A DNA stretch of 56,550 nt from Pseudomonadota bacterium (lineage in GTDB: Bacteria > Pseudomonadota > Alphaproteobacteria > Rhizobiales > Aestuariivirgaceae), in assembly GCA_963205315.1 (NCBI GenBank), contig CAUJIO010000017.1, forward strand, positions 1 to 56,550. Reading direction: 5' to 3'. Below the pieces are notes generated by a model. The model did not search any database. It saw nothing but the letters and a program-made list of their open reading frames with translations, and was not told the origin of the DNA. This document shows, piece after piece, positions 3,599 to 33,758 of this stretch. Every line of letters starts with the position of its first letter. The first letter of the stretch is position 1. The position numbers were made by a program, and so were the translations under genes.

Positions 3599-4405
3599 AT
3601 GAACGACGTTGCACGTGGATTGAAGGCCGATTCGGAGATGATTCTCATTGAACATCTGCCCTTCGAATCCGACGGCGGCATCGCCAGCCGCGCCCGGCTG
3701 GGCTTGCTTGTCCTCGCCACCGACTTCACCATCGAGCACGAATGGCGCGCCATCATCGGCGGCCTCCCGGGCGTTGCGCTCTACGAGAGCCGCATTCTCA
3801 ACGACGCGCAGATCACACCCGAAACCTTGCGCGCCATGGAACCGCGCATCGCCGCCGCCACCGATGTGATCCTGCCCGGCAGTCCGCTTGATGTCGTGGC
3901 TTATGGCTGCACCTCGGCCTCGATGGCGATCGGTGAGGAAAAGGTCTTCGACCGCATCCGCTCCGTCAGGCCCGAAGCGCGATGCACCACCCCCATCACC
4001 GCCGCCTTTGCCGCATTCCGGGCTCTTGGCGCCAGGCGCATCGGCGTGCTGACGCCCTATCGCGCCGACGTCAATCGCATAGTCGCCGACTACATCGGTG
4101 CCCGTGGCTTCGAGGTTCCGGTCTTCGGCTCCTTCAATGAGCAGGACGACGGCAAGGTTTCGCGCATTACGCCTGCCTCGGTGAAGCAGAGCGTCAAGAC
4201 CATCCTGTCGCACGCGCCTGTCGATGCTGTCTTCGTCTCCTGCACCTCGGTGCGCCTCGCTGAAGCCGCCCGCGGCATCGAAGCCGAAACCGGCGTGCCC
4301 ATCACCTCGTCGAACCATGCCATGGCGTGGCATGCGTTGCGCCTCGCCGGCATCACGGACGTCATGCCGCAATGGGGCAGGCTGTTCGAAACGCAGATGG
4401 CATGA
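3599..4405 (+). CDS. eutA: EutA-like Asp/Glu racemase-maleate isomerase family protein
   Basis: This 268-residue protein belongs to the maleate isomerase/arylmalonate decarboxylase branch of the Asp/Glu racemase superfamily. The two catalytic cysteines expected for the fold are present in VVAYGCTSASMAIG and VFVSCTSVRLAE. The closest family I recognise is EutA of ectoine utilisation clusters, whose reaction is not firmly established. The start is supported by a GGAGGG ribosome site nine bases upstream. The stop overlaps the next gene by an ATGA junction, implying translational coupling. The ectoine partners eutB, eutC and doeB are absent nearby, so a role in ectoine use is uncertain. It may racemise or isomerise an intermediate of the local pathway. 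Confidence 0.75.
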   Translation: MNDVARGLKADSEMILIEHLPFESDGGIASRARLGLLVLATDFTIEHEWRAIIGGLPGVALYESRILNDAQITPETLRAMEPRIAAATDVILPGSPLDVVAYGCTSASMAIGEEKVFDRIRSVRPEARCTTPITAAFAAFRALGARRIGVLTPYRADVNRIVADYIGARGFEVPVFGSFNEQDDGKVSRITPASVKQSVKTILSHAPVDAVFVSCTSVRLAEAARGIEAETGVPITSSNHAMAWHALRLAGITDVMPQWGRLFETQMA

Positions 4406-4998
4406 TGCACGAGGTTCACCGCGAGGCCATTCCGGCGCGAGCCCACTGGAGTCGCATTCTGCACAAGGGGCAAACGCTCCGCATCATCGACACCCATGGC
4501 CAGCAGGCCGTCGATTTTCTCTGCTACAATGCCCACGATTTCGACGAGCGGTATCACGAGCCCAACACCATCAAGAAGGCTGGCCGCATCCTGCTCACCA
4601 CGGGTGATGTGCTCTACTCCGACCGCGCCAATCCGCTCTTCACCATCGTGGCGGATACGTTCGGCGGCCACGACACCATCGGCGGCTGCTGTTCGGAGCC
4701 ATCGAACCGCATGCTCTATGGTGTTGCCAATGCAGGATGCCGAGAGAACTTTCTCGCCGCGCTGAAGCCATATGGCCTCGGCTGGCGCGACATCGTGCCG
4801 AACGTCAACTGGTTCATGACCGTGCCGGTGGGTGCGGCCGGAAACGCCGCCATCGCACTCGGCTCATCGCAGCCAGGCGACCACGTCGACATCCGCGCAG
4901 AAACGGATGTGCTGGCAGTAATCTCCAACTGCCCGCAGGTCCTTAACCCCTGCAACAACTTCAATCCGACCGGGATCGAAGTGGTGGTTTTCGCCTGA
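4402..4998 (+). CDS. DUF1989 (urea carboxylase-associated / carboxyguanidine deiminase-like) protein
   Basis: This 198-residue protein of the DUF1989 family was formerly called urea carboxylase-associated protein. Family hallmarks are visible in order: QAVDFLCYN, ADTFGGHDTIGGCC, CRENFLAAL, VNWFMTVPV and the C-terminal ISNCPQVLNPCNNFNPT. The conserved cysteines in GGCC, CRENF and SNCPQ look like a metal site. Relatives CgdA and CgdB are carboxyguanidine deiminases in guanidine degradation (established knowledge). Others in the family are uncharacterised. The start codon overlaps the stop of the EutA-like gene (ATGA). The neighbouring ureohydrolase gene converges on it and would release urea. 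A role in deiminating an amidine or guanidine compound is inferred. Confidence 0.8.
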   Translation: MMHEVHREAIPARAHWSRILHKGQTLRIIDTHGQQAVDFLCYNAHDFDERYHEPNTIKKAGRILLTTGDVLYSDRANPLFTIVADTFGGHDTIGGCCSEPSNRMLYGVANAGCRENFLAALKPYGLGWRDIVPNVNWFMTVPVGAAGNAAIALGSSQPGDHVDIRAETDVLAVISNCPQVLNPCNNFNPTGIEVVVFA

Positions 4999-5010
4999 AA
5001 GGCCCTCGTC

Positions 5011-5985
5011 CTACATCCGCCGGCGTTTCGCCACGTCCTCGGCCATCGAGCACAGAATCTCGAACATCATCGTCACACCCGCATGCGCGGTAATGCCCGA
5101 CGGGTCGAATGGCGGCGACACTTCCACCACATCTGCGCCGACGATGTTCAAACCCCTCAGTTCACGGAGCATCTGCTGCGCCTGGAATGTGGTGAAGCCG
5201 CCCACCTCCGGCGTGCCGGTCCCCGGCGCATAGACCGGATCCAGCATGTCGATGTCGAAGCTGACGTAAGTGGGCTGATCTCCGACGATGGCGCGCGCTT
5301 CGGTCATGATCGCCCTGGGTCCCTTCTCCATCGCCTCTTCGATGCGCACGAGCCGTACGCCCATCTTCTCGCCCCATTCGAAATCGTCGAGATCATACAT
5401 CGAGCCGCGCAGGCCGATCTGGATCGTCCGCTTCGGGTCGAGCACGCCCTCTTCGATGGCGCGGCGGAACGGCGTGCCATGGGTATACTTGAAGCCGCCG
5501 AAATAGCCGTCGTAGAGATCGGTGTGGGCGTCGAAATGAATCATGCCGACCGGCTTCTTTTCCCCCACCGCCCGCAGGATCGGCAACGAGCACAGGTGAT
5601 CGCCACCCGCCGACAGCGGCCGGATGCCCTTGCCCACGAGCGTCTTGAAATAGCCCTCGACCCGTTTCAGCGCGTCCTCGACGCTCGCCGGATTGACCGG
5701 GCAATCACCCAGATCCGCGACATTGGCGAGATCATAGGGCCTGATCATCATTGTCTGGTGCATGGGGCGCACCATGGCGGACATGTCGCGCATCTGGCGC
5801 GGCGCATGGCGGGGTCCAGGCCGGTTGGTGGTGCCGCCGTCCCACGGCACACCGACGATGCCGATGTCGAGTCCAGCCGCGTCTTCCAGCGGCACATGCG
5901 GCAGGCGCATGAAGGTGGCGATGCCGCCAAAGCGCGGCGTGACCAGTCCGGAGATCGGTTGGTTGAAGTTTTTCGGGTGTGGCAT
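5011..5985 (-). CDS. Ureohydrolase (agmatinase family, guanidino-acid hydrolase, GpuA/GbuA-like)
   Basis: This 324-residue arginase-fold hydrolase cleaves urea from a guanidino compound using two manganese ions. All metal motifs are present: AGGDHL, HFDAHTD and SFDIDMLDP. The sequence resembles 3-guanidinopropionase and 4-guanidinobutyrase of Pseudomonas more than true agmatinase, notably GVPWDGGTTNRPG, YTHGTPFRRAIEEG and the ending GVTMMFEILC; this comparison is from memory. Such enzymes yield beta-alanine or GABA plus urea. The gene converges with the DUF1989 gene and lies beside DauA- and AruI-like genes that would supply guanidinobutyrate precursors. The exact substrate cannot be fixed from sequence alone. 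Confidence 0.9.
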   Translation of the reverse strand: MPHPKNFNQPISGLVTPRFGGIATFMRLPHVPLEDAAGLDIGIVGVPWDGGTTNRPGPRHAPRQMRDMSAMVRPMHQTMMIRPYDLANVADLGDCPVNPASVEDALKRVEGYFKTLVGKGIRPLSAGGDHLCSLPILRAVGEKKPVGMIHFDAHTDLYDGYFGGFKYTHGTPFRRAIEEGVLDPKRTIQIGLRGSMYDLDDFEWGEKMGVRLVRIEEAMEKGPRAIMTEARAIVGDQPTYVSFDIDMLDPVYAPGTGTPEVGGFTTFQAQQMLRELRGLNIVGADVVEVSPPFDPSGITAHAGVTMMFEILCSMAEDVAKRRRM

Positions 5986-6004
5986 GGAAATGTCCTGGTG
6001 GGAC

Positions 6005-6556
6005 TTAGAGCTTGGGGGCCGTCATGATTTCCATCTGCCAGTCGTCGACCGTGGAAATAATGCCAGCTGAGGAAACAGTGATTTGCACCTTGACCGTATA
6101 TTTACCTGGTCCCTTCAACGTCGTCGACCGGGAGAAAGATGTGGCTTTCCAGTTCGCCACGCCGGCCACCTCGACGGCAGAGGCTGCAAAGTCATATTCT
6201 GCGTCGGGGTTCCACGACGTGACAACCCCGTCTTTCACACTGACGATTTGCATAGGGCAGTAGCCGCCAACCTGTTCTGCAGCAAATGACCCGCACAGGG
6301 TTTCAGACGAGAACCGGCCTATTGCAATCCATGTCTGTCCGGCTGGAACATTGATGGTCGCCACCGCTCCCGGGATATCCTTGAAAACGGTACTGGTCGC
6401 CTCGAACGATTCCACGCTCCTGACGACAGTGATGCCATTGATCGCCCCGCCTTTGAGGGTGGAGGCAGCCATGCCGCTGGATGTGGCCTGCCCCACCACA
6501 GCCAGAGTTGCGGCGACCCCGACCACGCACCGGTAAGATAAGTCCCTGCTGGCCAT
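6005..6556 (-). CDS. Hypothetical secreted protein
   Basis: This 183-residue protein was not assigned to a family. It begins with a short basic stretch and a hydrophobic segment (CVVGVAATLAVVGQATSSG), consistent with a Sec signal peptide cut near residue 30. The remainder is rich in Ser, Thr, Val and Gly and looks beta-rich. It has two cysteines close together (in ETLCGSF and GGYCPM) that could form a disulfide in the periplasm. It is transcribed in the same direction as the ureohydrolase, 19 bases upstream of it. No function is proposed. Confidence 0.6.
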   Translation of the reverse strand: MASRDLSYRCVVGVAATLAVVGQATSSGMAASTLKGGAINGITVVRSVESFEATSTVFKDIPGAVATINVPAGQTWIAIGRFSSETLCGSFAAEQVGGYCPMQIVSVKDGVVTSWNPDAEYDFAASAVEVAGVANWKATSFSRSTTLKGPGKYTVKVQITVSSAGIISTVDDWQMEIMTAPKL

Positions 6557-6695
6557 CCAACTGTTCTCCTGCTGTAAACTGTCGCCGCTAGATTGTCGGA
6601 TTACACTTCCTCAGCCACTGCTGGAAGTCAACGCGGAAACACCGTGGTTACTGTCCGGCGAGCGCGAGAGGACGCTGAATGCCTCGGGATAACCC

Positions 6696-7877
6696 TCACG
6701 CCTTCACCACCAGCTTTCTTGGCGTCTGGCACAGGCACTCCGCACCCTTGGACGTGATCAGAATTGTTTCCGACAGTTCCAGTCCACCATCATCGAGCCA
6801 AAGCGCCGGCATGAAGTGCAGCGTCATGTTGGGCTGCAGGACGGTCTTGTCGCCGCGCCGGATCGACAGCGTGCGCTCGCCCCAGTCGGGTGGATAGGAC
6901 AGGCCGATCGAATAGCCGGCCCGCGAATCTTTCGTGAAGCCGCGCTTCTGCAACGTGCCGAAGAAGGCGTCCGCCACTTCGCCGCAGGTCGTGCCTGGCG
7001 TACATTTGTCGAGTCCCGCCTGCGTCGCCTCAGACACCGCCTTCTCAGCTTCGAGGAACTTCTGCGGCGGCTTGCCCAGATAGACCGTGCGCGACAGCGG
7101 CGCATGATAGCGCCGGTAGCAGCCACCGAGTTCGAAGAACGTGCCCTCGTTGTTGAGGAAAGGCCGGTCGTCCCATGTCAGGTGCGGTGCCGTGGCATCG
7201 ATGCCAGACGGCAGCATCGGCACGAAGGCGCAATAGTCACCCCAATGCCCATCGGCTCCGAGGATCGCCTGCTTCTGGATCTCGGCCACCAGCACATTCT
7301 TCTTGAGGCCCGGTTCAACCAGTTCAACCACCTTGGCATGCATCGCATCGACGATTTTCGCGGCGCGGCGGATGAACTCCACTTCATGATCGCTCTTAAT
7401 GATGCGCTGCCAGTTCACCAGTCCCGTCGAATCGGAGAAGGCCGCATCCTTCAGATGTGTGCGCAGCGACTGGTTGGCCGCCGCCGAGTACCAGTAATTG
7501 TCCATCTCGACACCGATGCGTGCCTTGGCCCAGCCGCGCGACGCAATGGTCTTCGACAGGTCCTGCATCGGATGCCTGTCGGGGTTCTGCACATAGGTGT
7601 CTTCGTAGCCGAGAATATTGTCCTGCGTCATGAACACCGTGCGCTTGGCGCCTTGCGCATCCATGCCGCGGCCCCACCAAATGGGCTCGCCCTCGAGCCC
7701 GAGCAGCACGGCCTGATGCGTGTAGAACGACCAGCCGTCATAGCCCGTCAGCCACGCCATGTTGGACGGGTCCGACACGATGATCAGATCGAGCCCCTTC
7801 TCGATCATCGCCGCGCGGGTGCGGGCAATGCGGCGGTGATACTCGGCGAGCGGAAAGTACAGTGTCACATTTGTCAT
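6696..7877 (-). CDS. doeA: Ectoine hydrolase-like M24 family protein (DoeA/EutD)
   Basis: This 393-residue creatinase/aminopeptidase (M24) fold protein starts at MTNVTLYF. The sequence follows the DoeA/EutD pattern closely: SNMAWLTGYDGWSFY, WWGRGMDAQGAKRTV, YRRYHAPLSRTVYLG and SYPPDWGERTLSIRRGD. DoeA opens the ectoine ring to N-acetyl-diaminobutyrate (established knowledge). The metal ligands of true M24 peptidases appear replaced (Glu in FFELGG, Pro-Leu in APLSRT), as in creatinase and DoeA relatives. The gene is divergent from the D-amino-acid dehydrogenase gene, with only 64 bases between the starts. No deacetylase doeB, doeCD or ectoine importer is visible, so the natural substrate may be another cyclic amidine or a guanidino compound. 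Confidence 0.82.
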   Translation of the reverse strand: MTNVTLYFPLAEYHRRIARTRAAMIEKGLDLIIVSDPSNMAWLTGYDGWSFYTHQAVLLGLEGEPIWWGRGMDAQGAKRTVFMTQDNILGYEDTYVQNPDRHPMQDLSKTIASRGWAKARIGVEMDNYWYSAAANQSLRTHLKDAAFSDSTGLVNWQRIIKSDHEVEFIRRAAKIVDAMHAKVVELVEPGLKKNVLVAEIQKQAILGADGHWGDYCAFVPMLPSGIDATAPHLTWDDRPFLNNEGTFFELGGCYRRYHAPLSRTVYLGKPPQKFLEAEKAVSEATQAGLDKCTPGTTCGEVADAFFGTLQKRGFTKDSRAGYSIGLSYPPDWGERTLSIRRGDKTVLQPNMTLHFMPALWLDDGGLELSETILITSKGAECLCQTPRKLVVKA

Positions 7878-7941
7878 GGCTGCCATGATTGATCGGTTCG
7901 GCATTCTTGCGCAAGTGGCAGACGCGCGGCTATGTGAATTC

Positions 7942-9033
7942 ATGAGCAATGAATTTGACATCATCGTAATCGGCGCCGGCATTGCCGGTGCTTCGGTCGC
8001 CGCCCATCTGGCAGAAACCCGCTCGGTCGCCCTTCTCGAAATGGAAGAGCGTCCCGGCTATCACACCACCGGCCGCTCGGCCTCCATGTATGAGCCGAAC
8101 TACGGCCCGCCCTCGATGCTGGCGCTGACCCGGGCGGCGCGGCAGCATTTCGATGAAGGCGGGTTCCTGACGCCGCGCGAAACCATGTTCGTCATGCCCG
8201 ATGGCCAGGAGGACGATTTCGAGAAACTGATGGCCAAGCAGAAGGGCATCTCGGAAATCTCCGTCTCCGACGCCACAAGGCGCTTCCCGTTGCTGCGCGA
8301 GGGCTATGCCAAACGCGCCATTTTGGACTCTGGTACAGCGGATATCGACGTCGATCTGCTGCACAACAGCTACCTGCGCCTGTTCCGGCAGCGCGGCGGC
8401 GAATTGCACTGTTCCTCGCCCGTCACTGCCATCGAGAAGAACGGCCAGTGGAAGCTGAGGGCCGGAGACCTTTCCCTCAGCGCACGGATCATCGTCGATG
8501 CCGCAGGCGCCTGGGGCGATGCGGTGGCAGCACTCGCCGGCAAGAAGCCCGTGGGCCTGCAGCCAAAGCGCCGGTCCGTGGCCATCGTTCCGGCGCCCGA
8601 CTGCGACAATTTCATGAGCCTTCCGATGGTGGGCGACATCGGCGAGACCTGGTACTGCAAGCCGCAATCGGGCAAGTTCTTCGTGTCCCCCGCCGATGCA
8701 ACGCCCGTCGATCCGCATGACGCCTATGCCGACGACATGACGCTGGCCGAGGGCATTGACCGCTTTCAGAACGCTGTGAACTACGAGGTGACCCGCGTCG
8801 AACGCACCTGGGGCGGCCTCCGCTCTTTCGCGCCCGACGGCAGTCCGGTCGTGGGCTACGACAAGGCCGATGACGGCTTCTTCTGGCTCATCGGCCAGGG
8901 TGGCTACGGCATCCAGTCCTCGCCCGCACTCTCGCGGCTCGCGGCAGCACTCGTGCGCCACGAAAAACCTCCGTCCGACATCATGGACGAGGGGCTGATC
9001 CTGGCCGATATTTCGCCAGACCGCTTCGGCTGA
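7942..9033 (+). CDS. FAD-dependent D-amino-acid dehydrogenase (DauA-like)
   Basis: This 363-residue protein of the DAO/glycine oxidase family starts at MSNEFDIIVIGAGIAGAS, the dinucleotide-binding motif; in-frame extension upstream is not conserved in style. The motifs PGYHTTGRSA, GLQPKRRS, TWGGLRSFAPDG and QGGYGIQSSP match the D-arginine dehydrogenase (DauA) group as I recall it. DauA oxidises D-arginine to 2-oxo-5-guanidinovalerate. The conserved arginines that hold the carboxylate (in PKRRS and GLRSF) are present. Some side-chain pocket positions after GRSA appear to differ, so the substrate may be another D- or N-substituted basic amino acid. The product would suit the AruI-like decarboxylase at 16571. 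Confidence 0.75.
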   Translation: MSNEFDIIVIGAGIAGASVAAHLAETRSVALLEMEERPGYHTTGRSASMYEPNYGPPSMLALTRAARQHFDEGGFLTPRETMFVMPDGQEDDFEKLMAKQKGISEISVSDATRRFPLLREGYAKRAILDSGTADIDVDLLHNSYLRLFRQRGGELHCSSPVTAIEKNGQWKLRAGDLSLSARIIVDAAGAWGDAVAALAGKKPVGLQPKRRSVAIVPAPDCDNFMSLPMVGDIGETWYCKPQSGKFFVSPADATPVDPHDAYADDMTLAEGIDRFQNAVNYEVTRVERTWGGLRSFAPDGSPVVGYDKADDGFFWLIGQGGYGIQSSPALSRLAAALVRHEKPPSDIMDEGLILADISPDRFG

Positions 9034-9036
9034 TCG

Positions 9037-9840
9037 CTATCCCGCCAGCAGTGGGAACTCCGGCGCGTCCATCACCGCGCCGTGGGACAGCGTCACACTA
9101 CGGAAAGGTGGCGAGGTGTTGATGCCCTCACGCTTGGCATAGCGCACATTGTCGCCCATCAGCCGGAGCGAGAAGGCGCGGCGCTGGTCGACCTTGCTCG
9201 TGTTCGCCGGCGCGCCATGCAGGGTGAGGTAATTGAAGGCCACCGCATCGCCCGGCTCCAGCGCCCAGCCGAGCACGTTGAACTGCGCGCGGTTGCCATT
9301 GATGTCCGGCACAGGTTCCAGGCCGTCGTTTTCGTTGAGCGCCGTCTTGTTGAAACGCTCGGGCCGGTAATACTTGCCCCACTTGTGCGAACCGCCGACG
9401 AATTCCAGCGTGCGCTCGCGCGGCACGCTGTCGAGGGGAATCCATAAGGACACCGTGTCGGTGCCGTCGACGCAATAATAGGGCTGGTCCTGATGCCACG
9501 GCGTCGGCACATCGGCGCCCGGTTCCTTCACCAGCACATGTTCGTGAAACAGCCGCACGGTTTTCGTCCCCATCAGCGCCCGGCCGATCGCCGCCGCATC
9601 GGAGTTGAAGATGAAGTCCTTGTATTCGGGGATCCGGTCCCAGTTGCAATAGTCGCCGACGAAGCGGCCGTTGCCATCCTTGCCCTGATAGATCTTCACG
9701 TCCGCGGATGGCTCGGCCAGATTGCGGTCAACACCCTTGCGCAGAACCTCGACCCAATCCTTGAACACGCCACGCAACACAGCGGCACCGTCGCTGCGAA
9801 AGGCCTCGATCGTTTCGGCGGACGGCATACTGGTCATCAT
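9037..9840 (-). CDS. Phytanoyl-CoA dioxygenase (PhyH) family Fe(II)/2-oxoglutarate oxygenase
   Basis: This 267-residue protein has the iron-binding facial triad: His and Asp in PTPWHQDQPYY and the distal His in YLTLHGAPANTS. A basic residue in RRAFSLRLMGD probably binds 2-oxoglutarate. Family members hydroxylate small molecules, including amino acids and ectoine (EctD is a distant relative), but nothing in the sequence fixes the substrate. It converges with the D-amino-acid dehydrogenase (stop codons three bases apart) and is divergent from the LysR regulator, which may therefore control it. Hydroxylation of the imported compound is a possible first step (inference). Confidence 0.85.
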   Translation of the reverse strand: MMTSMPSAETIEAFRSDGAAVLRGVFKDWVEVLRKGVDRNLAEPSADVKIYQGKDGNGRFVGDYCNWDRIPEYKDFIFNSDAAAIGRALMGTKTVRLFHEHVLVKEPGADVPTPWHQDQPYYCVDGTDTVSLWIPLDSVPRERTLEFVGGSHKWGKYYRPERFNKTALNENDGLEPVPDINGNRAQFNVLGWALEPGDAVAFNYLTLHGAPANTSKVDQRRAFSLRLMGDNVRYAKREGINTSPPFRSVTLSHGAVMDAPEFPLLAG

Positions 9841-9900
9841 CGTTCTCCCTGTCTCAGGCCGGAACTTGCCAACTTGCAGCCATCACGTAAAATAATAACT

Positions 9901-10878
9901 ATGGATGCTCAGAATCAGAAAATCGGATTGCCTGCCGTCTCGCTGCGGCAAATGCAATATGCGCTGGCCGCCGCCGATGCCGGCAATGTCACCGATGCCG
10001 CCCGGCATCTCAATGTGTCGCAGCCCGCCGTGTCCGCTGCCATCGCCGCACTCGAAGCGCACTACGCCACCCGGCTCTTCATCCGCCGCCCCGGCCAGGG
10101 AATTTCCCTCACGCGATTTGGCCAGTCGCTGTTTGGTGAAATCCGCAGCCTGTTGAAACAGGCGCGCAGTGTCTTCGACCTGTCGGAAACCAGCACCGTG
10201 ACGCGCGGCGAGATCACCATCGGCATCTATGAGGCACTGGCGCCCTATTACCTTCCGGCCATTCTGTCCCGGCTCTCGGAGAAGCTTCCCGATGTCCGCG
10301 TCAACTTCTTCGAAGCCGAACTGGATGGACTGCTTGCGCGCCTCCATGATGGCAGCGCCGATCTGTGCATCACCTATGACGTCGGTCTCGATCACGACAT
10401 ATCGGCCACCACGCTCTATGAACTGCGTCCCTTTATCCTTGCCGCCGCACGCCATACGCTCACCAGGTCTCCCAGCGCCCGGCTGAAGGACCTCGACGGC
10501 CAGACTCTCGTCTTGCTGCAGCAGCAGGCCAGTGCGCAATATGTGCTGGGCCTGCTGCACGCCAGCCGCGTCCGCCCGTCGCGCATCATCCGTGCCCAGA
10601 GCTTTGAACTGCAGCGCAGCCTGGTCGCCAATGGCCTTGGCCTCGCGCTGTCGCATACGCGCCCCCTCGTCGCCACATCCTATGACGGCAAGAAGCTCGT
10701 CGCCGTGCCGGTGTCCGATCGCCTCGAGCCGCAGCGCGTGCTGCTGGCTGTCTCCAGCCGCCATCGTGCCGCGCCGATTGCCACGGCCGTAGCGCATGAG
10801 GTGCAGAAAACCTTCGCGGGCCTGCCTGAGGCGGCTGTGGACGACGGAATTTTGATCAACCGGAAAAAACGTGCTTAA
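9901..10878 (+). CDS. LysR-family transcriptional regulator
   Basis: This 325-residue protein has an N-terminal winged helix at about residues 18-77 (NVTDAARHLNVSQPAVSAAI) and a LysR effector-binding domain. The start is the ATG after a 60-base divergent gap facing the PhyH gene, a typical LysR arrangement. It lies 50 bases upstream of dppA on the same strand. By position it probably controls the PhyH gene and the importer operon in response to the imported compound or a metabolite of it. The inducer is unknown. Confidence 0.9.
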   Translation: MDAQNQKIGLPAVSLRQMQYALAAADAGNVTDAARHLNVSQPAVSAAIAALEAHYATRLFIRRPGQGISLTRFGQSLFGEIRSLLKQARSVFDLSETSTVTRGEITIGIYEALAPYYLPAILSRLSEKLPDVRVNFFEAELDGLLARLHDGSADLCITYDVGLDHDISATTLYELRPFILAAARHTLTRSPSARLKDLDGQTLVLLQQQASAQYVLGLLHASRVRPSRIIRAQSFELQRSLVANGLGLALSHTRPLVATSYDGKKLVAVPVSDRLEPQRVLLAVSSRHRAAPIATAVAHEVQKTFAGLPEAAVDDGILINRKKRA

Positions 10879-10887
10879 GTGATTTGA

Positions 10888-10902
10888 CGCCCCGGCGGGG
10901 CG
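10888..10902 (+). other. Short GC hairpin between the LysR gene and dppA
   Basis: A 6-bp perfect stem (CGCCCC/GGGGCG) with a three-base loop lies just after the LysR stop. It is followed by an A-rich stretch, not T-rich, so it is at best a weak terminator or a 5' hairpin of the dppA message. Confidence 0.3.
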
Positions 10903-10928
10903 GATGAAAAAATGTCAGGGAGTTACCA

Positions 10929-12533
10929 ATGAAATTCAAGACACTCTTCGGCGCGGCGCTGCTGGCCTCCACCATGCTGGTGGCCGGTGCGGCCAACGCC
11001 AAATCGCTCGTTTACTGCTCGGAAGGCTCGCCCGAGAACTTCAGCCCGTCGATGAACACCACCGGCACCAGTCTTGATGCCGCGCGTCCGGTCTACAACA
11101 CACTGGTCCAGTTCACCCCCGGCACCACCCAGGTCGAACCCGGCCTCGCCGAGAGCTATGAAGTCTCAGATGGCGGCAAGACCATCACCTTCCACCTCCG
11201 CAAGGGCGTGAAGTTCCACTCTGGCGTCAATGGTTTCACCCCGACGCGCGATCTCAACGCCGACGACGTGATCTGGTCCTTCGGCCGCCAGTGGAAGCCC
11301 GACCATCCCTTCGCCAAGGTGTCCGGCGGCTCTTATGACTATTTCAACGACATGGGCATGCCCGATCTTCTCGCCTCGATCGAGAAGGGCGCGGATGACC
11401 TGACCGTCGTCATGAAGCTCAACAAGCCGAACGCGCCGATCCTCGCCAACCTCGCCATGGATTTCGCCACCATCCAGTCGGCCGAATATGCCGATTACCT
11501 GATGAAGAAGGGTACGCCCGAACAGTTCGACCAGATTCCGGTCGGCACAGGTGCCTTCTCCTTCGTCGCCTATCAGAAGGACGCGGTGATCCGCTACAAG
11601 GCCAATGCCGATTATTGGGGTGGCAAGCCGAAGGTCGACGATCTCGTCTATGCCATCACGCCCGATGCGACGGCCCGCTACGCCAAGCTTCAGGCCAATG
11701 AGTGCCAGGTGATGGGCTATCCGAACCCCGCCGATCTCGCCGCCATGAAGGCCAACGCCGATGTCCAGGTGCTGGAACAGGCCGGCCTCAACATCGGCTA
11801 CCTGGCGATGAACGCCCAGAAGCCGCCGTTCGACAAGGTTGAAGTCCGCAAGGCCATCGCCATGGCGATCGACCGCGATGCGATCCTCAAGGAAGTCTAC
11901 CAGGGTGCGGGCCAGAAGGCCAAGAACCCGATCCCGCCGACCATGTGGTCCTATGACGACTCGACAGTTGACTATGAGTACAACCCCGACAAGGCCAAGG
12001 AGATGCTGAAGGCCGCGGGCGTCGAGAAGCTCGACACCGACCTGTGGTGGATGCCGGTACAGCGCCCTTACAATCCCAACGCCAAGCGCATGGCCGAAAT
12101 GATGCAGGCGGATCTCGCCAAGGTCGGCATCAACGCCACGCTCGTGTCTTACGAGTGGGGCGAATACCGCAAGCGCCTGCAGGCCGGTGAGCACCAGATG
12201 GGTCTCCTCGGCTGGACCGGCGACAATGGCGATCCGGACAACTTCCTCGCCGTGCTCTTGGGCTGCGACAAGGACGGCAAGCCCAACGCCCAGAACATTC
12301 CGAAGTGGTGTGATGCCAAGTTCAACGAGGACATCACCAAGGCGGCGGAAATCACCGACCCGGCCGAGCGCACCAAGCTCTACCAGGATGCCCAGAAGAT
12401 CCATCACGATCAGGCGCCCTGGCTGAACATCGCGCACTCGACGGTATTCGAACCGATCCGCAAGGAAGTGACCGGCTACAAGGTCAGTCCGCTCGGCAAG
12501 CACGAGTTCCAGAACGTCGACGTCGCCGAGTAA
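10929..12533 (+). CDS. dppA: ABC transporter substrate-binding protein, dipeptide/oligopeptide type
   Basis: This is a 534-residue periplasmic solute receptor of the SBP_bac_5 family. A signal peptide is obvious (MKFKTLFGAALLASTMLVAG, cut after AANA). The family-typical ITFHLRKGVKFHSG and YNPDKAKEMLKAAG segments are present. A CAGGGAG ribosome site precedes the start. It is the first gene of a complete dpp-type importer operon. These receptors take dipeptides but also amino acid derivatives, opines and other nitrogen compounds. The gene neighbourhood suggests a guanidino or amidine compound (inference). The hairpin and REP element after the gene may set its expression above that of the permeases. 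Confidence 0.93.
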   Translation: MKFKTLFGAALLASTMLVAGAANAKSLVYCSEGSPENFSPSMNTTGTSLDAARPVYNTLVQFTPGTTQVEPGLAESYEVSDGGKTITFHLRKGVKFHSGVNGFTPTRDLNADDVIWSFGRQWKPDHPFAKVSGGSYDYFNDMGMPDLLASIEKGADDLTVVMKLNKPNAPILANLAMDFATIQSAEYADYLMKKGTPEQFDQIPVGTGAFSFVAYQKDAVIRYKANADYWGGKPKVDDLVYAITPDATARYAKLQANECQVMGYPNPADLAAMKANADVQVLEQAGLNIGYLAMNAQKPPFDKVEVRKAIAMAIDRDAILKEVYQGAGQKAKNPIPPTMWSYDDSTVDYEYNPDKAKEMLKAAGVEKLDTDLWWMPVQRPYNPNAKRMAEMMQADLAKVGINATLVSYEWGEYRKRLQAGEHQMGLLGWTGDNGDPDNFLAVLLGCDKDGKPNAQNIPKWCDAKFNEDITKAAEITDPAERTKLYQDAQKIHHDQAPWLNIAHSTVFEPIRKEVTGYKVSPLGKHEFQNVDVAE

Positions 12534-12546
12534 GCAACAGCATGCT

Positions 12547-12570
12547 CACTCTCAACGGCGCTTGAGAGTG
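12547..12570 (+). other. Intercistronic stem-loop after dppA
   Basis: A perfect 9-bp inverted repeat (arms 12547-12555 and 12562-12570, six-base loop) lies 14 bases after the dppA stop. Hairpins here commonly protect the receptor message or attenuate transcription into the permease genes. The T content after it is modest, so partial termination is possible. Confidence 0.5.
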
Positions 12571-12584
12571 GGCTTTCCTACTTC

Positions 12585-12651
12585 CGTCATTCCGGCGCAG
12601 GCCGGGCCCCATCGATACGGCTGAGTGGGTCCTGGCCTGCGCCGGGATGAC
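12585..12651. repeat. REP-like extragenic palindrome
   Basis: The two arms (12585-12610 and 12626-12651) match as an inverted repeat at 23 of 26 positions by eye, around a 15-base centre. The sequence begins and ends with the CGTCAT/ATGACG and GGCGCAGGCC pattern often seen in repetitive palindromes of alphaproteobacteria (from memory). It sits inside the dppA-dppB gap, where a folded RNA would stabilise the upstream dppA message. Confidence 0.75.
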
Positions 12652-12683
12652 GTCAGGTGGATCCCAAATCCTGACAGGTGTCC

Positions 12684-13697
12684 ATGATCCGATTTCTCCT
12701 GAAGCGTCTGGCGCTTACCTTGCCGACCTTCTTTGCCCTCATGTTCGTCACCTTCGTGATGATCCGTCTGGTTCCCGGCGATCCCATCGAGGTGCGCCGC
12801 GGCGAACGCGGCATCAGTCCCGAACGCCTTGAACAGTTGCGTCACGAAATGGGCCTCGACCAGCCGATCTGGAAACAGTTCGTTGATTACGTCTGGGCGA
12901 TCCTGCATGGCGACTTCGGCACCTCCATCGTCTCCAAGACTCCCATTCTTCACGAGTTCGCGACGCTGTTCCCGGCGACGCTCGAGCTCACATTCTGCGC
13001 CATGATCTTCGCCATCGTGCTGGGCATTCCGGCCGGCGTTATCGCCGCTTCGCGCCGCGGCGGCGTCTATGACCAGTCGCTGATGGGACTGGCGCTCACC
13101 GGTTATTCGATGCCGATCTTCTGGTGGGGCCTGATCCTCATTCTTGTCATGTCGAACACGCTTCACCTGACGCCGGTTTCTGGCCGCGTCGATCTCATCA
13201 AGTTCTATTATGAGCCGGTGACCAACTTCATGCTCATCGACTCCCTTCTCTCCGGCCAGAAGGGCGCCTTCTGGGATGCGCTGCACCACCTCATCCTGCC
13301 CACCATCGTGCTCGGCACCGTGCCGTTGGCCGTCATCGCCCGCATGACCAGGTCGGCCATGCTCGAAGTGCTGGAAGAAGATTACGTCCGCACCGCCAAG
13401 GCCAAGGGGTTGTCGACCTATCGTATCATTGGCGTCCATGCGTTGCGCAACGCCCTGATCCCCGTTGTTACCGTCATCGGGCTGCAGATCGGCGGGTTGC
13501 TGGCCGGTGCGGTTCTGACCGAAACGATCTTTTCATGGCCGGGCGTCGGCAAATGGCTGGTCGAGTCGATCGGCCGGCGTGACTATCCCGCGCTGCAGGG
13601 CGGCATCATGCTCATCTCCACCGTGGTCATCATGGTGAACCTCATCGTCGATCTGCTCTATGGCCTCATCAATCCGAGGATCCGCCATGCCAAGTGA
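12684..13697 (+). CDS. dppB: ABC transporter permease, dipeptide type
   Basis: This 337-residue inner-membrane permease has the DppB/OppB pattern: N-terminal helix FLLKRLALTLPTFFALMF followed by RLVPGDPIEV. Further hydrophobic segments and the coupling loop EDYVRTAKAKGLSTYRII follow. The ATG at 12684 was chosen over an in-frame GTG six bases earlier, because a CAGG ribosome site sits five bases before the ATG. It overlaps dppC by 11 bases. It forms the translocation channel with DppC. Confidence 0.94.
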   Translation: MIRFLLKRLALTLPTFFALMFVTFVMIRLVPGDPIEVRRGERGISPERLEQLRHEMGLDQPIWKQFVDYVWAILHGDFGTSIVSKTPILHEFATLFPATLELTFCAMIFAIVLGIPAGVIAASRRGGVYDQSLMGLALTGYSMPIFWWGLILILVMSNTLHLTPVSGRVDLIKFYYEPVTNFMLIDSLLSGQKGAFWDALHHLILPTIVLGTVPLAVIARMTRSAMLEVLEEDYVRTAKAKGLSTYRIIGVHALRNALIPVVTVIGLQIGGLLAGAVLTETIFSWPGVGKWLVESIGRRDYPALQGGIMLISTVVIMVNLIVDLLYGLINPRIRHAK

Positions 13698-14595
13698 CAT
13701 CGCTGCAGCAGCCCCCGCCGCTCCAACTGCACCCCCCGGCCCGCTCACCGCCTTCTGGCGCGCCTTCCGCGAGAATCGTGGCGCCGTCGCCGGCCTGATC
13801 GTCGTCGTCACCATTTTGCTGGTGGCCATCTTCGCCGGCGTCATTGCACCCCACGACCCGATCGAACAATACAAGGGGTTCACCAAGCTGCCGCCGTTCT
13901 GGGCAGAAGGCTCCGACCCGCGCTTCCTGCTCGGCACCGATGCAGTGGGCCGCGACATGCTCTCGCGCCTCATGTACGGCGCCCGCGTTTCATTGTTCAT
14001 CGGTATTGCCGTGATGGCCGTGTCGATGGTCTTCGGCATCGCACTGGGCCTGGTCGCGGCCTTCTTCGGCGGCATCGTCGATGTGCTGATCATTCGCATC
14101 ATGGATCTGGTCATGGCCATTCCATCGCTGGTGCTGGCCATTCTCATCATCGCCATCATCGGGCCGAACCTGACGAACACCATCATCGCCGTCACCATCG
14201 TCGGCCTGCCGCGCTATGTGCGCCTTGTGCGCGCCTCGGCCCTGACCGAACTCACCAAGGACTATGTCACGGCGGCCAAGGTCGCGGGCGTCCGCCCGTG
14301 GCGGCTGATGACTGTCTCGGTATTGCCGAACTGCCTTGCGCCTCTGATCGTGCAGGCCGCCCTCGGCCTCTCCGATGCGATTCTCGAAGCGGCAGGCCTG
14401 GGTTTCCTGGGTCTCGGCGCCCAGCCGCCAACGCCCGAATGGGGCGCCATGCTGGCCGACACCCGCGACCTGATGATGTCACATCCCTGGGTCATGGCCT
14501 TCCCCGGCCTGTCGATCCTCACCACCGTCCTGGCCATCAACCTGATGGGCGACGGCCTGCGCGACGCGCTCGACCCGCGCCTCAGGAGGAGCTGA
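13687..14595 (+). CDS. dppC: ABC transporter permease, dipeptide type
   Basis: This 302-residue permease partner of DppB has a cytoplasmic Ala/Pro-rich N-terminus (residues 1-20). It continues with a first membrane helix (VAGLIVVVTILLVAIFAGVI), the LGTDAVGRDMLSRLMYGARVS signature and the coupling loop TKDYVTAAKVAGVRPWRLM. The start is the ATG inside the end of dppB; the 11-base overlap implies coupled translation. It is normal for the family. Confidence 0.94.
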   Translation: MPSDIAAAAPAAPTAPPGPLTAFWRAFRENRGAVAGLIVVVTILLVAIFAGVIAPHDPIEQYKGFTKLPPFWAEGSDPRFLLGTDAVGRDMLSRLMYGARVSLFIGIAVMAVSMVFGIALGLVAAFFGGIVDVLIIRIMDLVMAIPSLVLAILIIAIIGPNLTNTIIAVTIVGLPRYVRLVRASALTELTKDYVTAAKVAGVRPWRLMTVSVLPNCLAPLIVQAALGLSDAILEAAGLGFLGLGAQPPTPEWGAMLADTRDLMMSHPWVMAFPGLSILTTVLAINLMGDGLRDALDPRLRRS

Positions 14596-14598
14596 GCA

Positions 14599-15585
14599 AT
14601 GCCGCTTCTCGAAATCAAGAACCTCACCGTCGAGTTCAAGACCGGGTCCGGCGCCTTCCGCGCGGTGGATGGCGTCTCGCTGAGCGTCGACAAGGGTGAA
14701 GTCCTCGCCATCGTCGGTGAATCGGGCTCCGGCAAGTCGGTGTCGATGCTCGCCGTCATGGGCCTCCTGCCATGGACCGCCACCGTCACCGCCGATCAGA
14801 TGACCTTTGAAGGCAAGAACCTCCTCGGCATGACGGCGAAGGAGCGCCGCAAGATCATCGGCAAGGACATCGCCATGATCTTCCAGGAACCGATGTCGAG
14901 CCTCAATCCCTGCTTCACCGTCGGCTTCCAGTTGACCGAGGCGCTGAAGACCCATCTCGACCTCGACAAGCAGGCCCGCCGCAAGCGCGCCGCTGAATTG
15001 CTGGGCCTCGTCGGCATCCCTTCGCCGGAACAGCGGCTGTCCTCCTTCCCGCATCAACTCTCGGGCGGCATGAACCAGCGTGTCATGATCGCCATGGCCA
15101 TCGCCTGCAATCCGAAGCTGCTGATCGCCGACGAGCCGACGACAGCACTCGACGTCACCATCCAGGCACAGATCCTCGAGCTGCTGGTGCGGCTGCAGAG
15201 GGAAACCGGCATGGGCCTCGTGCTCATCACCCATTCCATGGGGGTCGTCGCCGAAACTGCTGAGCGCGTCAGCGTGCAATATGCCGGCCAGAAGGTGGAA
15301 GAGCAGAATGTCGCCGATCTCTTCCGCAATCCCCGCCACCCCTATACGGCCGCATTGCTCTCCGCCTTGCCTGAGCGCGCCACCGCCCGCCGCCTGCCCT
15401 CGATCCCCGGCGTCGTGCCGGGCCAGTTCGACCGGCCCAAGGGCTGCCTTTTCGCGCCGCGCTGCCAGTTCGCCACCGATCTCTGCCGCAATTCCGTGCC
15501 GATGCGTGTCGCCGGCACGCTCTGCCACTATCCCTTGAACAACGGCATCCCCGACAGCCATCCCGGCAAGGAGAAGGCCGCATGA
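14599..15585 (+). CDS. dppD: ABC transporter ATP-binding protein, dipeptide type
   Basis: This 328-residue ATPase of the Dpp/Opp importer carries Walker A GESGSGKS, signature SGGMNQR and Walker [13 protein letters not shown]. It also has the C-terminal oligopeptide-transporter extension with cysteines ([14 protein letters not shown]) typical of DppD. It starts three bases after dppC and overlaps dppF by ATGA, so the operon is tightly coupled. Confidence 0.95.
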
Positions 15586-16568
15586 GCATCGTCCTCACCG
15601 CCCGCGATCTCACCCGCTACTACTCCGTCTCGCGCGGCGCCTTTTCGCAGCCCGGCATCCTCAAGGCGCTGGATGGCGCCAGCTTCACGCTCGAGCGTGG
15701 CAAAACGCTCGCCGTGGTCGGCGAATCCGGTTGCGGCAAGTCTACACTCGCCCGGGCCGTCACCATGATCGAGTTGCCGACCTCGGGCTCACTCAACATC
15801 GCCGGCGACGAAATCGTCGGCGCCTCGAAGAAGACCCTGCGGGCGCTGCGCCCCAAGGTCCAGATCGTCTTCCAGAACCCCTATGGCTCGCTCAATCCGC
15901 GCCAGAAGATCGGCCATGCCCTGGAAGAGCCGCTGCTGGTCAACACCAGCTTGAGCCAGGCCGAGCGCACCGAAAAGGCCCGCGCCATGATGACGAGGGT
16001 CGGCCTGCGCCCCGAACATTATGACCGCTATCCGCACATGTTCTCCGGCGGCCAGCGCCAGCGCATTGCGATTGCCCGCGCCCTGATGCTCGATCCGGAA
16101 GTGCTGGTGCTCGATGAGCCGGTTTCGGCCCTCGACGTGTCGATCCAGGCGCAGGTACTGAACCTGCTGGCCGATCTGCAGGAGCAGCACAACCTCGCCT
16201 ATCTCTTTATCAGCCACGACTTGTCCGTCGTGCGCCACATCGCCAACGAGGTGATGGTGATGTATCTGGGCCGTGTCGTCGAACAGGGCCCGCGCGATGT
16301 CATCTTCGCCAACCCGCAGCACCCCTATACCAAGGCGCTGCTGTCGGCCACGCCGCAGCCCAATCCGGATGTGAAGCGCGAGCGCATCGTGCTGAAGGGC
16401 GAGTTGCCATCGCCGCTCAATCCACCATCCGGCTGCACCTTCCATCCGCGCTGCCCATTGGCTTTCGAGCTCTGCAAGAGCGTCAACCCGGCCCTGCTTG
16501 CACACGAGGGAAGCCTTGTGGCATGCCACGCCGTGAACCAGCCCCAAGCGGAAACAAAGGCAGCCTGA
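15582..16568 (+). CDS. dppF: ABC transporter ATP-binding protein, dipeptide type
   Basis: This 328-residue second ATPase of the importer has Walker [10 protein letters not shown], signature SGGQRQR and Walker [13 protein letters not shown]. The C-terminal region has the cysteine motif [10 protein letters not shown]. It overlaps dppD by four bases. The TPP-enzyme gene begins three bases after its stop, so import and catabolism appear to be co-transcribed. Confidence 0.95.
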
Positions 16569-16570
16569 TA

Positions 16571-18154
16571 ATGTCCAAGCGTGCAGAACTCTCGACCGGC
16601 GAGGCTCTCGTCGGCCTTCTCGAAGCCTATGGCGTCGACACGATCTTCGGCATTCCCGGCGTTCACAACATCGAGATGTACCGCGCCCTGCCGCGTTCGA
16701 AGATCCGCCATGTGCTTGTGCGCCACGAACAGGGCGCCGGCTTCATGGCGGATGGCTATGCCAGGGCCACAGGCAAGCCGGGCGTCTGCTTCACCATCAC
16801 CGGACCCGGCGTCCTGAACATCCTCACACCAATGGGCCAGGCCTGGTCGGATTCGAGCCCCATGCTGGTGATCGCCACCGCCCTCGACATTCGCGACTCC
16901 GCGCAAGGCCGTGGCCGTTTGCACGAAATGCTCGATCAGCGCGGGGCCGCCGCCACCGTCACCACCTTCCACATGCGCGCCTATACGCCGAAGGATGTGC
17001 GCGATGCCATCGCCCGCGCCTTCGCCAATTTCGCCAGCCAGCGGCCGCGCCCCGTTTACATCGAAATCCCCATCGACACGCTGAAGGAACCGGCAGGAGA
17101 CGGCTGGACGGCCCGCGCCCTGCCGAAACTGCCATTGCCCGATCCCCAACAGATCGGAGCCGCCACCGCGCGGCTCAACGCCGCCAGGCGCCCGCTCATC
17201 CTGCTCGGTGGCGGCGCCATGGGTGCGGGCGCCGAAGCTCTGGCTATTGCCGAGAAACTGCAGGCGCCGATCCTGACGACCGTTGCCGGCAAGGGCGTCG
17301 TGCCGGCCGATCATCCCCTCTGCATGGGCCATCGCCTCGGCCGCGCCGCTGCCGTGTCTTTCCTCAAGAGCTCCGATGCCATCCTCTGCGTCGGCTCGGA
17401 ACTCTCCGAAACCGACTTCTGGGACACCGATGTGCTGATCGATGCGAACCTTATCCGCATCGACATCGACCCCGCCTCGCTGGCAAGGCCGCACACCGCC
17501 GAGATCGCCATTCTGGGTGACGCGCGTGCAGCGCTCGCCGCCATTGCACCGGCCATCACCGCGCGCAGCACCAAGGGCCTCGCAACGGATGACCTGCAGG
17601 ATGCCCCGCCGGATGCGGTGCGCCAGATGCTCATCAAGGTGCTGGACGTGATCCGCGCCTCGCTGCCGGCCGAAACCGTCTTCGCCTCCGACATGACGCA
17701 GATCGCCTATGCCGCGAATGAGGACTTCGACGTGCTGCGGCCGCGCACCTGGATTCACCCTGTCGGCTTCGGCACCCTGGGCTTCGGCCTGCCCGCCGGC
17801 ATCGGCGCCAAGTTCGGCGTCGCTGAAACTCCGGTGGCCATCCTGCATGGCGACTACGGCATTCAATACACCCTCAATGAACTCGGCACCGCCGTCGAAC
17901 ACAAGCTGCCAGTCATCGTGCTGCTGTGGAACAACGAGCTCCTCGGCGCCATCCATGACAGCATGGCGAGGGCTGGCATTCAGCCCAACAACGTCACGCT
18001 CCGCAATCCCGATTTCCAGGCCTTGGCCAAAGCCTATGGCTGCAACGCCGAGAAACCTTCGTCGCTCAAGGCGCTGGCCGATGTCATCAAGGCGGCACTC
18101 AAGGCCGAAGGTCCGACGCTGATCGAGATGACCCCACGCATGGTCAATGGCTGA
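16571..18154 (+). CDS. aruI: Thiamine-diphosphate decarboxylase, AruI-like (5-guanidino-2-oxopentanoate decarboxylase)
   Basis: This 527-residue protein has the three-domain acetolactate-synthase fold. The N-terminal catalytic Glu lies in LVRHEQGAGFMADGYA and the C-terminal ThDP motif runs from HGDYGIQY to LLWNNE. The opening TGEALVGLLEAYGVDTIFG and GIPGVHNIEMYR match AruI, which decarboxylates 2-oxo-5-guanidinovalerate to 4-guanidinobutyraldehyde in the arginine transaminase route. The start ATG follows dppF by three bases. An aldehyde dehydrogenase for the next step is not in the window. A DauA-like enzyme (7942) and an AruH-like aminotransferase (24719) could both supply its substrate. Confidence 0.78.
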   Translation: MSKRAELSTGEALVGLLEAYGVDTIFGIPGVHNIEMYRALPRSKIRHVLVRHEQGAGFMADGYARATGKPGVCFTITGPGVLNILTPMGQAWSDSSPMLVIATALDIRDSAQGRGRLHEMLDQRGAAATVTTFHMRAYTPKDVRDAIARAFANFASQRPRPVYIEIPIDTLKEPAGDGWTARALPKLPLPDPQQIGAATARLNAARRPLILLGGGAMGAGAEALAIAEKLQAPILTTVAGKGVVPADHPLCMGHRLGRAAAVSFLKSSDAILCVGSELSETDFWDTDVLIDANLIRIDIDPASLARPHTAEIAILGDARAALAAIAPAITARSTKGLATDDLQDAPPDAVRQMLIKVLDVIRASLPAETVFASDMTQIAYAANEDFDVLRPRTWIHPVGFGTLGFGLPAGIGAKFGVAETPVAILHGDYGIQYTLNELGTAVEHKLPVIVLLWNNELLGAIHDSMARAGIQPNNVTLRNPDFQALAKAYGCNAEKPSSLKALADVIKAALKAEGPTLIEMTPRMVNG

Positions 18155-18824
18155 CAGGGCCAGGAACAGCGCCGTCATCTTCGATGTCGACGGCGTGCTG
18201 CTGGAACTCACGGCCGCCGAGGAAGACGCCTTTTTCCTGGCTTTCGAGCGGCGATACGGCCTCACCGGCCTGTCGCGCGACTGGGACAGTTATCGCGTCC
18301 GCAACGATGAGCATATCATCGCCGAGATTCTCGAAACGCACGGCCTGCCTGCACAGGACAGCGCGGCGGTCGTTGAAGACTATCTGGCCATTCTCTCGTC
18401 CGGCCTTGAGCGTGGCACCATTCCATCCGTCACCATTCCGGGCGCCGCCGATATGCTCCGTGAACTGAGCATCACGCACAGCACCGGGATCGCGACTGCC
18501 AATTTGCTGGCCGCCGCACGCCTGCGGCTGGAAAACCAGAACCTCTGGGCTCCGGTCTCGCTGCTCGCCTTTGGCGCCGAAGGCAGCGGTCACAAGCGTG
18601 ATACCGTTGCCCGCGCCATCGCCGCAACCAGTCTACCAAAGCACCGCATCGTTTATATTGGCGACAACCTGAATGACGTCGATGCCGGCTTCGCCAACGG
18701 CGTTCACTTCATCGGCTTCTCCACCGATGCCGCCCGCCGCAAAACTCTGCAAGCCGCGGGAGCTCTCCACATGTCGGGAGATCACCTCACAACACTTCAT
18801 CTGGTCAGGCACCTTCTGCAATAG
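18147..18824 (+). CDS. HAD-superfamily hydrolase
   Basis: This 225-residue phosphatase-like protein has the nucleophile motif IFDVDGVLLEL at the N-terminus and the acidic motif IGDNLNDVDAGFANG near the end. It overlaps the AruI-like gene by eight bases, so it is the last gene of the importer operon. HAD proteins dephosphorylate small metabolites; nothing here fixes the substrate. It may be a house-cleaning phosphatase. Confidence 0.85.
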   Translation: MADRARNSAVIFDVDGVLLELTAAEEDAFFLAFERRYGLTGLSRDWDSYRVRNDEHIIAEILETHGLPAQDSAAVVEDYLAILSSGLERGTIPSVTIPGAADMLRELSITHSTGIATANLLAAARLRLENQNLWAPVSLLAFGAEGSGHKRDTVARAIAATSLPKHRIVYIGDNLNDVDAGFANGVHFIGFSTDAARRKTLQAAGALHMSGDHLTTLHLVRHLLQ

Positions 18825-24279: not shown

Positions 24280-24689
24280 TCCGCTCAACCGTTCTCAACG
24301 CTGCCGCAGCAGAAGGCCCCGTACTCGCGCTGGAGGAACCCCTGAGCTTCTGGGGTGCCTTCGATCCGCAAACCGGCATCATTCTGGACGTTCATCATCC
24401 CCAGCGTGGGGCCTGCCTCAAGGGCACCATCCTGTTGATGCGGGAAACGCGAGGCTCGGGCTCCGCACCCGGCGCCATTGCCGAGGCCATCCGGCTCGGC
24501 ACCGCCCCCGCCGCCATCATCCTGAGCCTCGCCGACATCAACCTCGCCATTGGCGCCGATGTCGCTGAGACACTGTATGGCCGCGCCTGCGCCATTCTCA
24601 GCGTGACGCCCGATGAACTTGCAACCCTGATGCGCGCGGCAAGATTGCGCATCACTGCCGAAGGTGAAATCACCGTCGAAACCGTGTAA
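24276..24689 (+). CDS. Aconitase X small (swivel) subunit, DUF126
   Basis: This 137-residue protein matches the swivelling domain of AcnX. It has the family pattern LSFWGAFDPQTGIILDVHHP followed by GACLKGTILLMRETRGSGS. The ATG at 24276 was chosen over a GTG at 24264, because it makes the usual ATGA overlap with the large-subunit stop. It is required with the upstream gene product to form the dehydratase active site. Confidence 0.9.
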   Translation: MIRSTVLNAAAAEGPVLALEEPLSFWGAFDPQTGIILDVHHPQRGACLKGTILLMRETRGSGSAPGAIAEAIRLGTAPAAIILSLADINLAIGADVAETLYGRACAILSVTPDELATLMRAARLRITAEGEITVETV

Positions 24690-24718
24690 CAGGCGGCCAC
24701 AAAGCTGAAGGGTCTCGC

Positions 24719-33749: not shown

Positions 33750-33758
33750 GATCGAACC

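Follow-up and report, generated by a model that had tools for sequence, protein, structure and literature searches.

Do the genes packed around a single dipeptide-type importer in a Rhizobiales genome form a pathway, and if so, for what compound? The stretch of DNA analysed here, hereafter the window, comprises 56,550 nt of the forward strand of contig CAUJIO010000017.1 (assembly GCA_963205315.1; Rhizobiales; Aestuariivirgaceae), which is contig C17 of a 4.67-Mb genome, G000, in our numbering of genomes (G), contigs (C) and loci (L). An earlier note, made from the letters of the window, had named ten kinds of gene between positions 3599 and 18824 and proposed that they form one route for importing and degrading an unusual guanidino amino acid. 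All ten are present and in place (Table 1). In our reading, the cluster probably serves to degrade a guanidino amino acid of D configuration, either D-arginine or a close analogue, fed partly by peptides. Its core is a DauA-like flavin adenine dinucleotide (FAD)-dependent D-amino-acid dehydrogenase (DAO), an AruI-like thiamine pyrophosphate (TPP)-dependent 2-oxo-acid decarboxylase (AruI) and a ureohydrolase of the 3-guanidinopropionase (GpuA) type. An M24-fold relative of DoeA (M24), the dppABCDF importer, a PhyH-family oxygenase, a EutA-like protein and a DUF1989 protein are modules.

We infer the core chemistry from protein families, residues and linkage. DAO would oxidise the D-amino acid to a 2-oxo acid, and AruI would decarboxylate this product, giving a guanidino aldehyde. 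An aldehyde dehydrogenase whose gene lies outside the cluster would convert the aldehyde to a guanidino acid, and the ureohydrolase would split the latter into urea and an omega-amino acid. The importer would supply dipeptide-like forms, which M24, the PhyH oxygenase or an M19 dipeptidase, the last seen at two related loci, could turn into the substrate of the core.

A core of three linked genes

To place the cluster among its relatives, a group here called Aestuariivirga, we surveyed 37 genomes of the genus, counting the ureohydrolase, DAO, AruI and M24 at orthologue level and measuring gene distances from match to match; the genomes are 66–100% complete, and some absences may be assembly gaps. 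The ureohydrolase and AruI were each present in 33 genomes, DAO in 31 and M24 in 14. Where a genome has both, the ureohydrolase and DAO share a contig in 28 of 31 cases, never more than 2 kb apart; DAO and AruI do so in 24 of 30 genomes, within 8 kb throughout. Presence was associated within each pair by Fisher tests that make no correction for relatedness (ureohydrolase–DAO, p=0.00023; ureohydrolase–AruI, p=0.002; DAO–AruI, p=0.0096), and by the same test M24 was associated with none of the three (p≥0.28). On these linkage counts and tests, DAO, AruI and the ureohydrolase constitute the core, and the co-occurrence implied by a shared route holds for them. Three genomes (G014, G015 and G034) lack all three genes alike.

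The single route that the earlier note drew from the whole gene list is supported for this linked trio and not for the rest, which is not obligatory. The core occurs within 12 kb without M24 in 17 of the 37 genomes, and DAO and AruI lie 6–29 bp apart in 14, with no importer between them. The spacing is 6.5–8.0 kb in ten others; dpp genes fill this wide gap in all seven that were read (G000, G001, G006, G010, G024, G029 and G030), G017, G026 and G032 being left unread. In a wider survey, we examined the 80 top-ranking loci out of at least 565 with a relative of the ureohydrolase. Near the 18 closest loci (identity at least 74%, several cut by contig ends) we found DAO at 12, AruI at seven and M24 at six; the EutA-like, PhyH and DUF1989 genes, which the earlier note had treated as members of the route, accompany seven, five and three of these loci, and are not fixed members. 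For the LysR-type regulator, none of the 31 neighbourhoods compared holds a relative at 35% identity, so its membership is likewise not upheld.

The importer gene dppF ends 2 bp before AruI, which in turn overlaps the HAD-family hydrolase gene by 8 bp; from this spacing, the importer and the decarboxylase are probably transcribed together as a single unit. DppA scores 695 bits against 8z1y, a dipeptide-binding protein of solved structure, and shares the 8z1y residue at both positions where 8z1z differs. We take 8z1z to be a deliberate mutant of the E. coli protein, and the two residues presumably anchor the dipeptide termini. DppA scores below the cut-off of the DppA equivalog model (740.8 against 1005). 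The idea of a peptide importer is supported by five Dpp subunits and by the 8z1y residues of DppA; the 14 genomes mentioned above have no importer at this place. Two types of dppABC occupy the same position in the group, with DppA either 56–59% or 72–91% identical to that of the window, and DppD and DppF stay 79–91% identical throughout. At L082 and L083, the latter from a genome of the same family and another genus (G277), an M19 dipeptidase takes the place of M24 between DAO and the ureohydrolase. It lies on the DAO strand, overlapping DAO by 1 bp in L082 and 4 bp in L083, and matches PF01244 at 315.9 bits in L082. M19 dipeptidases prefer a C-terminal D-residue.

Table 1. Genes of the cluster, with coordinates in the window
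Gene product	Position	Strand	Place in cluster	Family or structure match
EutA-like Asp/Glu racemase-superfamily protein	3599..4405	+	module, not core	TIGR02990, 223.1 bits (below cut-off)
DUF1989 protein	4402..4998	+	module	PF09347, 206.9 bits
Ureohydrolase, 3-guanidinopropionase (GpuA) type	5011..5985	-	core	3NIP, 427 bits
183-aa open reading frame between ureohydrolase and M24	6005..6556	-		no Pfam/NCBIfam match
M24-fold DoeA/EutD (ectoine hydrolase) relative	6696..7886	-	module	TIGR02993, 617.7 bits
DAO, DauA-like FAD D-amino-acid dehydrogenase	7942..9033	+	core	DauA 3NYC, 267 bits
PhyH-family Fe/2-oxoglutarate oxygenase	9037..9840	-	module	PF05721, 89.9 bits
LysR-type regulator	9901..10878	+		PF03466, PF00126
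dppABCDF dipeptide-type ATP-binding cassette (ABC) importer	10929..16568	+	module between DAO and AruI	NCBIfam and Pfam
AruI-like TPP 2-oxo-acid decarboxylase	16571..18154	+	core	NF005712, 597.1 bits
HAD-family hydrolase	18147..18824	+		PF13419, 43.3 bits

Substrate of the core enzymes

What would the core act on? The AruI-like label is borne out by NF005712, the model for 5-guanidino-2-oxopentanoate decarboxylase (cut-off 500); this is a subfamily-type model, and a pass does not prove function. The best solved relative of DAO is the D-arginine dehydrogenase DauA (3NYC). According to one study, residues Y53, R222, E246, Y249 and R305 of DauA serve amino-acid binding and gating, and E87 touches the guanidinium of the substrate (PMC11193025); another has T50 hydrogen-bonding the guanidinium (PMC9996824). 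All five binding and gating residues are kept in the alignment with DAO. The position of T50 is occupied by E in the window and in 18 of 18 aligned proteins of the group. E50 together with S or T at position 87 occurs in 10 of 10 DAO proteins of family f1, a set that overlaps these 18, and neither state occurs in 14 DAO proteins from other families, nine of which keep E87. This residue survey read 24 of 30 loci, the other six being dropped. From the replacement of E87 by S/T together with that of T50 by E, an acid near the guanidinium appears to be kept in the DAO of the group, but moved.

The earlier note had called the ureohydrolase GpuA/GbuA-like. The family assignment holds, and within it the protein lies on the GpuA side, scoring higher with 3-guanidinopropionase 3NIP (59% identity over the aligned part) than with guanidinobutyrase 3NIO (324 bits). 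The specificity position is Y157 in GpuA and M161 in GbuA, as given in PMC10833137. A Tyr stands here in the window and in 15 of 15 aligned relatives of the group, none of which has the Met of GbuA. The agmatinase label was considered and set aside, solved agmatinases, for instance 7LOL at 190 bits, falling far behind 3NIP at 427. An unusual substrate may be suggested by the shifted residues of DAO and, more weakly, by the GpuA type of the ureohydrolase.

Several observations weigh against assigning the cluster to a D-configured guanidino amino acid. The guanidinium contact E87 of DauA is lost, with T in the window and S or T in all 18 group proteins. The Tyr of the ureohydrolase is not specific to the group: it also occurs in nine of nine distant ureohydrolases whose neighbourhoods lack the core (11 loci were chosen, L103 and L146 having no sequence), and is therefore a trait of the subfamily rather than a change in this lineage. 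The same protein passes the agmatinase model TIGR01230 (191.8, cut-off 174.3). Among the best 80 ureohydrolase loci, the 62 more distant ones have no DAO, AruI or M24 nearby, bar two weak matches at 21% and 25%; outside the group, the enzyme thus serves other contexts. Two genomes of the genus (G002 and G027) have the ureohydrolase and AruI with no DAO match, G035 has AruI only, and G012 lacks AruI; G012, G034 and G035 are 74–82% complete. The cluster itself encodes no aldehyde dehydrogenase, and that step must therefore come from elsewhere, where any of 17 PF00171 matches in the window genome could supply it. Lastly, a locus of another family, L234, pairs a DAO that keeps E87 with a GpuA-type ureohydrolase in a genome (G113) absent from the list of AruI matches, so the state of DAO and the type of ureohydrolase can part.

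Two narrower forms of the D-guanidino reading differ in the compound. In the first, the plain D-arginine route of DauA, AruI, KauB and GbuA is gathered in one locus with an importer, and D-arginine or its dipeptides would yield 4-aminobutyrate and urea. It gains from the NF005712 match, from DauA being the nearest solved relative of DAO, from the 8z1y residues of DppA and from the M19 gene beside DAO in L082 and L083. It gains also from three genomes of another family (L229, L230 and L231), where a DAO with E87 adjoins a GbuA-type ureohydrolase, 75–76% identical to GbuA and with Met at the specificity position; these genomes carry an AruI relative elsewhere and look like the textbook version of D-arginine use. 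The replacement of E87, the change of T50 to E and a ureohydrolase of GpuA rather than GbuA type stand against plain D-arginine in the group, and we hold it to be possible without expecting it.

In the second form, which we consider doubtful, the substrate is a guanidino compound other than arginine, such as D-2-amino-4-guanidinobutyrate (norarginine) or a hydroxylated arginine, and the route ends in 3-guanidinopropionate or its hydroxy analogue. Such an end matches the GpuA-type ureohydrolase, and the moved acid of DAO and the PhyH oxygenase found in part of the clusters would also fit. The Tyr argues in the other direction, since a residue common to all nine distant ureohydrolases slightly lowers the likelihood of norarginine and slightly raises that of plain D-arginine; L234, moreover, separates the two traits on which the idea draws. 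In a search of open-licence papers, no account of norarginine catabolism came up. Prediction of ureohydrolase specificity by docking is called daunting in PMC10833137. A more elaborate proposal would be a route not previously described for a norarginine-like or hydroxylated D-guanidino amino acid, delivered in dipeptide-like or cyclic form and ending in hydrolysis of 3-guanidinopropionate, with the guanidinium-binding acid of DAO shifted onto its lid loop and the DoeA homologue recruited as one among several exchangeable front-end hydrolases; we regard it as unlikely.

The M24 protein and its ectoine relatives

The M24 protein raises the question of whether the cluster handles ectoine. Its DoeA-like label is upheld by a pass of the ectoine hydrolase model TIGR02993 (617.7, cut-off 613) and by alignments with DoeA 6TWK and prolidase 3Q6D, in which, read by eye, it has the DoeA residues at the prolidase metal-ligand positions, which we take to be those of M24 peptidases. 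A creatinase acting in creatine degradation was rejected on scores (495 bits with DoeA, 46 with creatinase 1CHM), and an ordinary metal dipeptidase on the metal-ligand positions, which are replaced as in DoeA. We conclude that M24 is a true DoeA relative, putatively used as an optional front-end enzyme. It shares a contig with the ureohydrolase in 11 of the 14 genomes having both, always within 1.2 kb; wherever the two are on one contig they adjoin. Where linked, M24 sits between the ureohydrolase and DAO.

If the pathway were one for ectoine or a different cyclic amidine, M24 would be the ring-opening enzyme, with the deacetylase DoeB replaced by the ureohydrolase or by some other enzyme. Besides the model pass and the metal-ligand residues, this alternative can draw on the tight pairing of M24 and ureohydrolase, whose matches are 17–27 bp apart in eight of the 11 genomes, and on a stand-alone pair without DAO in G002 (L044, 8504–10655), where PhyH, dpp and AruI genes lie on another contig (L255). 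In a quick tree of 29 M24 proteins, with support by Shimodaira–Hasegawa-like approximate likelihood ratio test (SH-aLRT) only and no bootstrap, the proteins of L045 and L046 branch inside the ureohydrolase-linked clade (8-row group, SH-aLRT 98). L045 M24 lies 25 bp from a DoeB gene above cut-off (G018) and L046 M24 adjoins a DoeB fragment, so one type of enzyme is found both within an ectoine operon and next to the ureohydrolase. In a comparison of M24 proteins, 10 ureohydrolase-linked and six DoeB-linked sequences differ in 15 columns, nearly all of them lineage-wide; the DoeB-linked L045 protein has the ureohydrolase-linked state except at position 224, where one of the 10 differs too, and the comparison gave no sign of a change in specificity. 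L234 (2478–13284) brings together a ureohydrolase, DoeB, M24, DAO, dpp and HAD genes, with DoeB (508.2 bits, cut-off 402.7) placed between M24 and the ureohydrolase, and looks like a form midway between an ectoine operon and the cluster of the window.

Against ectoine, 23 of the 37 genomes lack M24, and it is among these that the 17 with a complete core are found. The window genome has no DoeB above cut-off, its best match reaching 276.3 bits on contig C10 against the same threshold of 402.7, and among the Pfam and NCBIfam matches of the window cluster there is no EutB, EutC, DoeB or ectoine transporter. We judge an ectoine or cyclic-amidine pathway improbable. We know of no guanidino substrate for DoeA. 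A chance neighbourhood of unrelated amino-acid genes, to which the occurrence of EutA-like, DUF1989, PhyH and LysR genes in subsets of relatives or none might point, is far less credible still, given that DAO, AruI and the ureohydrolase, taken two at a time, share a contig in 23–28 genomes, and given the pairing of DAO with a ureohydrolase in another family as well.

Accessory genes, neighbours and known systems

The EutA-like gene, which overlaps the DUF1989 gene by 4 bp, encodes a protein that fails TIGR02990 (cut-off 318); its Cys at aa 104 and 215, of the racemase/isomerase type, are present in 15 of 15 aligned sequences, including maleate isomerase 4FQ7. The DUF1989 protein fails both TIGR03424 (UAAP2; 245.2, cut-off 284.7) and TIGR03425 (170.3, cut-off 205.95). 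The earlier note had likened it to carboxyguanidine deiminases, a comparison that a single protein below both cut-offs does not bear. No Rfam family reached threshold in the window, and there is therefore no guanidine riboswitch match; free-guanidine assimilation was rejected on these observations. The PhyH protein has its HxD motif at aa 116, with MysH 9C9N as best solved relative. The 183-aa open reading frame matched, among 256 loci, only same-contig stretches (L009 and L182), and is probably outside the pathway. The HAD gene adjoins AruI in L079, L080, L213, L215, L217, L218 and L219 and is not beside it in L212 or L255.

Other associations were seen around these families. AruI relatives of other families adjoin an aminotransferase in L165, L227, L239 and L240, and lie one gene from it in L228. 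In the window, the large and small subunits of Aconitase X (AcnX) and a class I aminotransferase form a tight array at 23014–25891, after an acyltransferase gene, and AcnX recurs near AruI in L217, L218, L219 and L255. We considered a role as arginine transaminase for this aminotransferase (24719–25891), whose top-scoring NCBI model, GntC, gives 257.5, far below the cut-off of 415. A paralogous ureohydrolase, 56% identical to that of the window, adjoins a creatininase-family protein (PF02633) in L251 (2834–4569), which suggests that a cyclic guanidine may be opened there and urea then released. A second divergent pair of DUF1989 and ureohydrolase genes lies on contig C24 of the window genome (L247, 8451–10040), and the two also occur together in L148. 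One flank of L044 seems, by eye, to carry flagellar genes. The cluster of the window is flanked by lnt and by a gene that we take to be fasciclin-like. Further along, at 25928–35435, are SoxG-, SoxA- and DAO (SoxB-like) genes, a SoxD-size open reading frame, a glutamine-synthetase-like gene and split glutamate-synthase-like genes, presumably an N-methylglutamate (methylamine) pathway.

How does the cluster compare with known systems? No description of this gene combination was found in open-licence papers, the only literature searched. The guanidino route that the earlier note proposed has good support in the core, from family scores, linkage and residues near the guanidinium, and its full gene list does not form one path. 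The core opens to genetics the way in which environmental bacteria may obtain nitrogen from compounds resembling D-arginine, and its amino acid may be one origin of the guanidino acids split by GpuA-type enzymes. GpuA (3NIP) is the closest solved ureohydrolase and has the same Tyr at the specificity position, at 59% identity over the aligned part. The guanidine carboxylase pathway has two DUF1989 partners, CgdA and CgdB, unlike the cluster with its one. Ectoine clusters (DoeA/EutD, DoeB/EutE, EutABC) share with it the M24 family and a distant EutA relative nearby, whereas here the partner of the DoeA-family gene is a ureohydrolase and not DoeB; to take every EutD/DoeA for a sign of ectoine use would therefore be unsafe. 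The closest likeness is to the D-arginine route of P. aeruginosa, with its DauA dehydrogenase, AruI decarboxylase and GbuA/GpuA-family ureohydrolase. In Pseudomonas, the genes for DauA, AruI, GbuA and KauB, which is part of the route, are scattered, whereas the window holds a single tight locus that includes a dipeptide-type importer and lacks an aldehyde dehydrogenase, and in which the acid of DAO has apparently moved and the ureohydrolase is of the GpuA rather than the GbuA type. The cluster belongs to the same type of system as the D-arginine/2-ketoarginine route, of which it represents a novel form.

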